This document shows positions 1 to 30,837 of a stretch of DNA of 64,000 nucleotides, piece after piece. Numbering within the stretch: the first letter of the stretch is position 1; every line of letters starts with the position of its first letter. The position numbers and the translations under genes were made by a program. Source of the stretch: a virus. The notes beneath the pieces are model-generated. The model did not search any database and had not been told where the DNA came from. It saw only the letters and a list, made by a program, of their open reading frames with translations. The DNA lies in the IMG/VR virus record IMGVR_UViG_3300031963_000048, positions 30,807 to 94,806 of that record; one strand, given 5' to 3'.

Positions 1-1102
1 GTTTCAGTCTAGCACCCCCAAGACTATTGTAGTGACGGCGCCGCGCATCCTCCTGGCAGAGCAGTTGTCTGCTGAATACCTTGAGTTTATCACTAATGCT
101 TCTGTGATGCACATTCACAGTGGTGAGACTCATCACTTCAGCAGCACTCGTCCCAATGCGATTCGCACTTGGTATGAGCAAACTCAAGGTCACAAACTGA
201 TTTTCACCACTTACAATTCTCTGCAGCAACTTGCAAAGGCAGATATTGAGGTGGATACGATTTACTTTGATGAGGCACACAATAGCGTTCAACGTCACTT
301 CTTTCCTGCTGTAGAGCATTTTGCTGCTGAAGCAAAGCGTTGCTACTTCTTTACTGCAACTCCCAAGTATTCTGCCACCGTTGCCAAACCTGGTATGAAT
401 GATGTTGCTGTCTACGGTAATATCATCGCCAAAGTTCCTGCTCCTGAATTGGTACAGGGTGGCTATATCATTCCTCCCAAAGTGATTACTGCTCCAATGC
501 GTCTGTCCGTCAAGGGTGAGGATATTGCTCAACGGGACTGTGAGTATCTGATGCAAATCATTCAGGACAATCCTGTCGATAAGATTCTGGTGTGTGCAAA
601 GGCAACTCGCCACATCATTGCTCTGCTGTCTGAATCTGACTTTGCAGACCAGATTGCCGAGCAAGGTTACTCTGTGCTGCACATTACTGCCAAGCACGGT
701 GCATTTATTGATGGGCAGAAGGTCAATCGTGAGGTGTTTTTTGACACTCTGAATGCTTGGGGCAAAGACCCTGACAAAAAGTTTGTGGTCCTGCATCACA
801 GCATTCTGGCAGAAGGCATCAACATTTCTGCTCTGGAAGCGGTCGTGTTCTTGCGCTCTATGGACGTTGTGGGCATCGGTCAGACCGTTGGTCGGACGCT
901 GCGTCTGCACCCCCAAGACGCCGCTGGAATCCGCTCTGGCGCCATTCAGGCAGGCGACCTGTCGTCCTACACTAAATCCTATGGTCTGGTGGTCTGCCCG
1001 GTCTTTGACAAGGCATCTACGGGCACTGCGAAGGCAGTCCAGAATGTGGTGGACATCATCTTCAAGCAAGGTGAGGTTGCCGTCAGCATTGTCAGGCGCT
1101 GA
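1..1102 (+). CDS. Superfamily 2 DEAH-box helicase, 5' partial
   Basis: C-terminal part of an ATP-dependent nucleic-acid helicase; the reading frame is open from base 2, so the start lies before the window and the GTG at 32 is internal (the frame upstream reads TPKTIVVTAPRILLAEQL, like motif Ia). Counting from base 32, the DEAH box is near residues 80-83, a TAT motif III near 108-110, and the motif VI string QTVGRTLRLHP follows in the second RecA-like domain. Walker A must lie upstream. T4-like phages carry UvsW in a similar role (branch migration, recombination-dependent replication), but the motif spacing visible here does not prove UvsW; a restriction-helicase-type relative is the alternative. 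Confidence 0.82.
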   Translation, partial: FQSSTPKTIVVTAPRILLAEQLSAEYLEFITNASVMHIHSGETHHFSSTRPNAIRTWYEQTQGHKLIFTTYNSLQQLAKADIEVDTIYFDEAHNSVQRHFFPAVEHFAAEAKRCYFFTATPKYSATVAKPGMNDVAVYGNIIAKVPAPELVQGGYIIPPKVITAPMRLSVKGEDIAQRDCEYLMQIIQDNPVDKILVCAKATRHIIALLSESDFADQIAEQGYSVLHITAKHGAFIDGQKVNREVFFDTLNAWGKDPDKKFVVLHHSILAEGINISALEAVVFLRSMDVVGIGQTVGRTLRLHPQDAAGIRSGAIQAGDLSSYTKSYGLVVCPVFDKASTGTAKAVQNVVDIIFKQGEVAVSIVRR

Positions 1103-25360: not shown

Positions 25361-25390
25361 ATTCTCAATAAGATGAATATTATTGAGAAT
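25361..25390. repeat. Palindrome copy 1 (11/8/11)
   Basis: ATTCTCAATAA, 8-nt spacer, TTATTGAGAAT. The same arms with the same spacer length recur at 26095-26124; only the loop differs. Confidence 0.8.
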
Positions 25391-25505: not shown

Positions 25506-25591
25506 CCTTAGCGAGCGTATCATAAGAAGAGCAGTTTGTCAACCCCCGCCCCCATAAAAATCCCCAGACCCTCACAAGAACTCGACGAGAC

Positions 25592-25620
25592 TTGACATTC
25601 TTCTAGAAGCATGATAGAAT
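25592..25620 (+). promoter_or_regulatory. Strong sigma-70 promoter flanked by operator-like sites
   Basis: TTGACA (25592-25597), 17-nt spacer, TAGAAT (25615-25620). CTCGACGAGA lies immediately upstream (25581-25590) and CTCGTCGAGA immediately downstream (25621-25630). Confidence 0.75.
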
Positions 25621-25724
25621 CTCGTCGAGACATTCTGTTACGAGATCCACATCAGAACTCGTCTAGAACGCTCTAGATTCATATATATTATCGTATGAAT
25701 CTCGTCGAGATCTGCACACACCTA

Positions 25725-25754
25725 TTGCAATCTCGACGAGCCTTATGCTACAAT
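25725..25754 (+). promoter_or_regulatory. Promoter with a CTCGACGAG site in its spacer
   Basis: TTGCAA (25725-25730), 18-nt spacer holding TCTCGACGAG (25731-25740), TACAAT (25749-25754). Drives the 25788 gene; a further site at 25775-25784 sits just before the ATG. Confidence 0.65.
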
Positions 25755-25787
25755 ATACAAGTCACATCACACAATCTCGACGAGCTC

Positions 25788-25928
25788 ATGTACGACGATT
25801 ACGATTTCGACTATACGTATACGAATGATTATGTAGATCTAGATGAGAACTATACACTAGATCTAGATGATGATTATGCACGAGATTCGCATGATTATCA
25901 AGATCTAGCATATCGTCATTATGCATAA
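25788..25928 (+). CDS. Asp/Tyr-rich small protein (46 aa)
   Basis: Roughly half of the 46 residues are Asp or Tyr (MYDDYDFDYTYTNDYVDLDE); strongly negative, so possibly a DNA mimic or a protein-binding tail. The DNA is unusual too: repeated AGATCTAGAT-type palindromes. Start at 25788 follows the promoter; the frame is open to 25695 but that would run through the promoter. Controlled by the CTCGACGAG island. No family recognised. Confidence 0.55.
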   Translation: MYDDYDFDYTYTNDYVDLDENYTLDLDDDYARDSHDYQDLAYRHYA

Positions 25929-26070
25929 TAAGCAACACGTTCGTATCATTCTAGATGTAGAGTGTTATGATGATCTAGATCTAGATGTATATGAATGGGC
26001 AGAAATATTGCAGCTCGAAGGTGATGAGACTGTGCATTCTACCATCATGCATCTCGATCCATTCAAGTAA
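25921..26070 (+). CDS. Conserved cyanophage-type protein (49 aa)
   Basis: MHNKQHVRIILDVECYDDLD then LDVYEWAEILQLEGDETVHS; the RIILDVE(C/V)Y strand is familiar from cyanophage small proteins. Overlaps the Asp/Tyr-rich gene by 8 nt, and shares its AGATCTAGAT codon runs. Confidence 0.65.
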   Translation: MHNKQHVRIILDVECYDDLDLDVYEWAEILQLEGDETVHSTIMHLDPFK

Positions 26071-26094: not shown

Positions 26095-26124
26095 ATTCTC
26101 AATAAGGTCCTCGTTATTGAGAAT
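26095..26124. repeat. Palindrome copy 2 (11/8/11)
   Basis: ATTCTCAATAA (26095-26105), 8-nt spacer, TTATTGAGAAT (26114-26124), identical arms to copy 1 at 25361. Lies 25 nt after the 25921 gene and directly before promoter box 12; may act as a terminator or protein site. Confidence 0.8.
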
Positions 26125-30660: not shown

Positions 30661-30837
30661 ATGAAAAAAAATTCCGGGGAAATTTTTGAGACCATAGAGG
30701 TTGATCCAGTTAGCGGTGATTATTACATCAAAATTCCAGGTGAGATTATGAATGAACTTTCTTGGTATGAAGATACTGAGATTTCTTTTACTTTAGATGG
30801 TAATGATATTATTCTATCTGAAAGAAAGGAAGATTGA
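30661..30837 (+). CDS. AbrB-like small protein (58 aa)
   Basis: MKKNSGEIFETIEVDPVSGD then YYIKIPGEIMNELSWYEDTE: the 'v-x-IP-x-x-x-(m/l)-x-x-l-x-(W)-y-x-x-t' hairpin pattern of AbrB/MazE-type swapped-hairpin DNA-binding proteins, of a version seen in cyanophages. Likely a small DNA-binding regulator. Start placed at 30661 rather than the upstream 30619 ATG because of the conserved MKK beginning. Confidence 0.7.
   Translation: MKKNSGEIFETIEVDPVSGDYYIKIPGEIMNELSWYEDTEISFTLDGNDIILSERKED

Follow-up and report, generated by a model that had tools for sequence, protein, structure and literature searches.

What are several copies of one palindrome doing around the promoters of a T4-like phage? The window analysed here is a stretch of 64,000 nucleotides (positions 30,807 to 94,806 of IMG/VR virus record IMGVR_UViG_3300031963_000048, a 94.8-kb sequence that is probably a fragment). 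A sequence-only reading had described in it five copies of a near-palindromic 10-mer within 204 bp: two flanking a TTGACA-17-TAGAAT promoter, one filling the spacer of TTGCAA-18-TACAAT, and one just ahead of the ATG at 25788. It took this for the layout of repressor operators, and saw no copies elsewhere in the window. We recovered all five copies of CTCGWCGAG in 25581-25784 (starts 25581, 25621, 25701, 25732 and 25776), and their positions relative to promoters and ATG were as described. The unit is indeed a near-palindrome, but its length had to be corrected: the core is 9 bp (CTCG-W-CGAG), and the extended palindrome found across the family is 15 bp.

Dinucleotide shuffling of the window gave an expectation of 0.14 CTCGWCGAG, with a maximum of 1 in 100 shuffles. 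The absence of other copies extends to the whole 94,806-base source record, which holds no further exact site outside 25581-25784; a control pattern, the motif written backwards, had 0 matches in this record. A sequence-specific palindrome is therefore repeated here beyond chance, as is expected of an operator array. A sixth copy, CTCGTCTAG at 25658, in which one half-site is changed from CTCG to CTAG, was counted as part of the array because the same one-half variants recur in relatives. The features of the locus are as follows; P1, P2 and the minus-strand promoter are predictions from sequence matches.

25361..25390, no strand: AT-rich inverted repeat ATTCTCAATAA...TTATTGAGAAT, beyond the minus-strand promoter
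25514..25542, minus strand: predicted divergent promoter TTGACA-17-TACGCT, upstream of the array
25581..25589, no strand: site 1, CTCGACGAG, ending 2 bp upstream of the P1 -35 hexamer
25592..25620, plus strand: predicted promoter P1, TTGACA-17-TAGAAT, 11/12 consensus match with a perfect -35
25621..25629, no strand: site 2, CTCGTCGAG, beginning directly after the P1 -10 and spanning the expected start point
25658..25666, no strand: site 3, natural variant CTCGTCTAG with one CTAG half-site
25701..25709, no strand: site 4, CTCGTCGAG, 31 bp start-to-start upstream of site 5
25725..25754, plus strand: predicted promoter P2, TTGCAA-18-TACAAT, with TG preceding the -10 (extended -10)
25732..25740, no strand: site 5, CTCGACGAG, within the P2 spacer, centre at about -25
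25776..25784, no strand: site 6, CTCGACGAG, 3 bp before the ORF1 start codon (ATG 25788)
25788..25928, plus strand: ORF1, 46 aa, MYDDYD...LAYRHYA, acidic and Tyr/Asp-rich
25921..26070, plus strand: ORF2, 49 aa, phrog_12516 (unknown function), overlapping the end of ORF1
30661..30837, plus strand: acidic AbrB/MazE-like protein, phrog_661, the binder proposed by the sequence-only reading

The two small genes and their surroundings

ORF1 had zero Pfam or PHROG matches and is without annotation in the named phages S-SRM01 and S-T4. Its product is 25% Asp and 20% Tyr, and was predicted, at low confidence, to be largely unstructured with a C-terminal helix. It appears to be under constraint at the protein level; the median pairwise dN/dS was 0.12 (conserved ends; DNA-level constraint may bias this value). 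ORF2 is present also in phages that have no array. On average over 64 ORF1-family sequences, Asp, Tyr, Asn and His, the amino acids of queuosine-type tRNAs, make up 51% of the residues, and the codons CTC (Leu) and GCA (Ala) dominate; this richness and codon bias may be due to chance or to DNA-level constraint.

The operon is flanked on both sides by inverted repeats ATTCTCAATAA...TTATTGAGAAT (25361-25390 and 26095-26124), and similar repeats adjoin the array in related phages. They could possibly be a terminator, Fur-like half-sites or another binding site. At the gathering score, no Rfam family was found in the array region, where matches below that score were at chance level. An RNA hairpin formed between sites was considered and rejected, since within an array most sites are oriented alike (A centre), which leaves a central mismatch.

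Conservation of the array in cyanophages

The nearest named relative found was S-SRM01, a Synechococcus phage of the Kyanoviridae. Its 240,842 bases contain 11 exact sites, all within 85571-91005 and in three clusters, of which the first is orthologous to the array of the window and the third adjoins an HNH endonuclease gene. Sites beside a related small ORF were also found in S-SKS1, S-T4, marine virus AG-345-L05 and P-SSM2, with CTAG half-site variants among those of the last three. Syn9, S-PM2, S-SM1, P-HM1 and DSL-LC03 had no cluster, and DSL-LC02 had no exact site. Genomes with an array have it about 5-12 kb upstream of gp25-gp6-gp7. In the S-T4 record, as joined from its pieces, the array is seen twice, near the start and near the end (L296 2748-2925 and L239 174317-174494); the duplication may be a long terminal repeat, or else stem from overlap in the assembly or from an error in the joining.

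A search of IMG/VR by ORF1 alignment, in which the motif was not used, gave at least 522 confirmed relatives. The loci kept were the best 80 of these at least 522; they are partly redundant, and fractions calculated on them describe near relatives. Within this best 80, the 550 bp ending at ORF1 contained at least one exact site in 80/80 loci and at least two in 79/80, and site density was 8.3 per kb beside ORF1 compared to 0.12 per kb elsewhere in the loci, about 68-fold lower. IMG/VR was also searched with a pair of motifs, which gave at least 120 matches. Among the matches listed, 80 loci were examined, and 60 of them carried the ORF1 family as recognised by a strict pattern. Loci outside this pattern included some with a variant ORF1 ending (L451, L455), some with a different small ORF in its place (L417, L432), one where ORF2 follows directly (L447), and one with a phrog_1653 gene (L476). 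The ORF-first and motif-first searches were concordant. The sites are thus kept in related phages, and they are not scattered through coding sequence; either result could have gone against the sequence-only reading.

To describe the site, we used 64 non-redundant arrays (less than half of their 10-mers shared), with 270 promoter-region sites. The consensus over these sites is the 15-bp palindrome AATCTCGWCGAGATT, in which each half-site is CTCG or, more rarely, CTAG. An array usually has 2-7 sites within about 330 bp upstream of ORF1, and in nearly all of the 64 the last site stands 2-4 bp ahead of the ORF1 ATG. Spacings range from 15 to 97 bp; those between upstream sites are most often 31-33 bp, and that from the spacer site to the ATG site is 38-44 bp. 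Helical phasing of sites is frequent in repressor-type operator arrays, though not obligatory; here a spacing of 3 and 4 helical turns was not upheld by a period scan, which had no peak at 10.5 bp (the resultant declines steadily from 9.5 to 12 bp), and only the preferred spacings remain.

Locking to promoters was pronounced. A site in the TTG...TAnnnT spacer, as in P2, was present in 52/64 arrays and in 0/5000 control windows from cyanophage genomes, with a modal distance of 13 bp between site centre and -10. The P1 layout, with a start-point site directly after TTGACA-TAnnnT, was found in 12/64 arrays (control rate 0.0002), and a divergent minus-strand TTGACA-16..18-TAnnnT in 42/64, compared to 1.1% of controls. 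The sites therefore overlap promoter elements that polymerase is predicted to bind. P2 has an off-consensus -35 (TTGCAA/T) and a -10 of the extended form TGnTAnAAT.

Other clusters and concerted change

Secondary clusters were found 1-4 kb downstream. In several loci they stand ahead of the phrog_1653 gene (S-SRM01 88259 and relatives), and in three loci ahead of a tRNA-Leu(TAA) gene (L185, L189, L195), one of which, L195, has the site-like TCTCGACGAT in the spacer of a TTGACA-17-TATAAT ahead of the tRNA; the remaining ones have no recognised gene directly after them. The same site is therefore present at more than one predicted promoter, as in a regulon. A separate observation concerns a pseudoknot-like element, GAGGAARGGGTTTGCCTC...AAAGTYACCC, of which eleven distinct copies were found by pattern (L103, L130, L151, L154, L159, L431, L444, L464, L476, L498 and L505); in several of the loci the phrog_1653 gene lies upstream of it. 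A similar element lies near 8146 in L001, and that copy had no meaningful Rfam match.

In two arrays, on which the case for concerted change rests, the centre of the site has changed. All five promoter sites of L200 are CT[CA]GSCGAG, with a G or C centre (GGGCG), whereas the copy inside ORF1 stays CTCGACGAG, with an A centre; in L149, the change to G or C is seen in 3/4 promoter sites. That short sites in unlike flanks change together is most readily explained by one binding protein exerting selection on them. The class of S-type sites appears small: a scan of IMG/VR for S-S centres had three matches, namely L149, L200 and one unrelated GC-rich contig, and the single match to S-W centres was unrelated. 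Other lineages depart further. Upstream of ORF1 in L185 the 9-mer is gone, with ACGAGAT half-sites and CTCGCGCGAG in its place. S-SKS1 has seven ACGAGATA at 150834-151017, compared to three elsewhere in its 208 kb. In S-CAM7 (L233, about 1130-1400) a different repeat, GCAGCATATA/GCAGTATATA, occupies the place homologous to the array; ORF2 is present in this phage, and ORF1 was not found.

Candidate binding proteins and the reading of the array

Every array-bearing genome in the comparison encodes the AbrB-like protein proposed as binder, in the interval from the array to gp25-gp6; it was also found in 12/20 further contigs, and most of those without it were short. Structure prediction gave this protein a low-confidence fold resembling a swapped hairpin. 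It is syntenic and conserved, yet each of its 18 distinct copies, at about 57 residues, has a net charge between -8 and -12. Such strong acidity makes it unlikely to be a sequence-specific DNA binder, and this proposal was set aside. We also asked which S-SRM01 ORFs occur in five other genomes with the array and in five without it. Many genes were shared, with no convincing repressor among them; the test is confounded by the relatedness of the array-bearing genomes to one another. Finally, a scan of 84,980 prokaryote species genomes for paired sites gave 42 scattered matches, none titled as a cyanobacterium, which makes a host regulon of paired sites unlikely.

Among known systems, the OR/OL-type arrays of lambda and other temperate phages have several copies of one palindrome placed over divergent promoters, in spacers and at start points. 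The array of the window shares these placements, but it belongs to T4-like cyanophages, which are generally regarded as lytic and in which co-occurrence gave no repressor gene; moreover, sites are found here ahead of a tRNA gene and an accessory gene. The stoperators of cluster A mycobacteriophages are many copies of the site of one regulator, dispersed in the phage genome. Here too, many copies of one site would serve one putative regulator, but they are palindromic, locked to promoters and gathered in 1-3 clusters within about 6 kb. In T4, the MotA box takes the place of the -35, at about -30, beside an extended -10. P2 similarly has a phage-specific box adjoining an extended -10, but its palindrome is centred near -25 and a -35-like hexamer is kept.

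This last comparison bears on the possibility that a phage activator, in a role like that of MotA, aids or replaces -35 recognition at P2. The off-consensus -35 and extended -10 are what such a protein would be expected to accompany; the hexamer, however, is off-consensus because it overlaps the AAT flank of the operator, P1 has a perfect -35, and a site between the hexamers, on a start point or before an ATG is in a blocking position. We regard an activator as rather unlikely. A host cyanobacterial regulator whose operator was borrowed by the phages would fit the occurrence of one motif across phages of Prochlorococcus and of marine and freshwater Synechococcus. It seems improbable in view of the genome scan, the related phages that lack the motif or, like S-CAM7, have a different repeat at the homologous place, and the concerted centre change in L200. 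As for codon use or low-complexity drift, CTCGACGAG does encode Leu-Asp-Glu in frame within ORF1 of many relatives, and these copies are probably coding and not required. Most sites, on the other hand, lie outside coding sequence and are locked to promoters, they come as both CTCGACGAG and CTCGTCGAG, and the centre change affects non-coding sites jointly but spares the coding copy; that the array is a by-product of this kind is hardly credible.

The sites might instead be iterons bound by an initiator at a replication origin, with the divergent minus-strand transcript priming synthesis as proposed for T4 oriE. The latter consists of a direct-repeat cluster, syntenic in close relatives, with an early promoter and small genes nearby (PMC3016281). 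Repeats, two small genes and a conserved divergent promoter are likewise present here, at a constant place some 5-12 kb upstream of gp25-gp6-gp7. The T4 repeats, however, are 12-nt, direct and evenly spaced (PMC3016281), while the present sites are palindromic, uneven and also found at other promoters, including that of tRNA-Leu. Cumulative GC skew had no turn at the S-SRM01 array, which is a weak test in T4-like phages. An origin is in our view unlikely.

We conclude that the array probably consists of operators of one regulator, itself probably phage-encoded and most likely a repressor, because chance is excluded and the sites cluster genome-wide, lock to promoter spacers and recur at other promoters. 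Repression is what we infer from these sequences. One sequence-specific DNA-binding protein, presumably a dimer, would recognise the palindrome, occupy several sites and block host RNA polymerase at P1 and at P2, the latter being a putative extended -10 promoter of sigma-70 type with a site in its -35/-10 spacer. The ORF1-ORF2 operon would be switched on or off during infection by the bound protein, and the phrog_1653 gene or the tRNA-Leu gene would be switched likewise in some phages. The repressor-operator layout of the sequence-only reading is strongly supported, now with overlap of the polymerase footprint, recurrence in hundreds of phages and at other promoters, and concerted change in at least one phage; this does not extend to repression itself or to the identity of the factor. 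That reading had also called the layout unusual in a lytic T4-like phage, and in the papers searched no account of it was found: CTCGACGAG and CTCGTCGAG are absent from them, and the S-SRM01 paper speaks of neither promoters nor operators nor palindromes. Among the phages of this group, however, the array is common.

T4-like cyanophages rank with the most abundant viruses of sunlit waters, and little is known of how their early genes are controlled. Putative operator types differ by lineage: CTCGWCGAG, CTCGSCGAG, the ACGAGATA half-site arrays of S-SKS1 and the GCAGTATATA-type repeat of S-CAM7. More tentatively, a large clade of T4-like cyanophages, among them the model isolate P-SSM2, may encode a regulator that has yet to be described and reads operators of its own code. 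In lytic infection it would switch the promoters of genes for tiny acidic proteins, of an accessory gene and of tRNA-Leu, and its specificity would diverge between lineages, possibly keeping the circuits of co-infecting phages apart. If so, lineage-divergent operator types would be as expected from co-evolution of regulator and site. Why lytic phages retain a repressor-like circuit is a question that this raises. An operator code conserved in hundreds of phages, together with promoters that can be predicted and two small genes that had been overlooked, offers a direct route to the regulator, with the AATCTCGACGAGATT array as bait for site affinity. It also indicates a gene-control circuit, so far undescribed, in viruses of a group that is very common in the sea and in fresh water.
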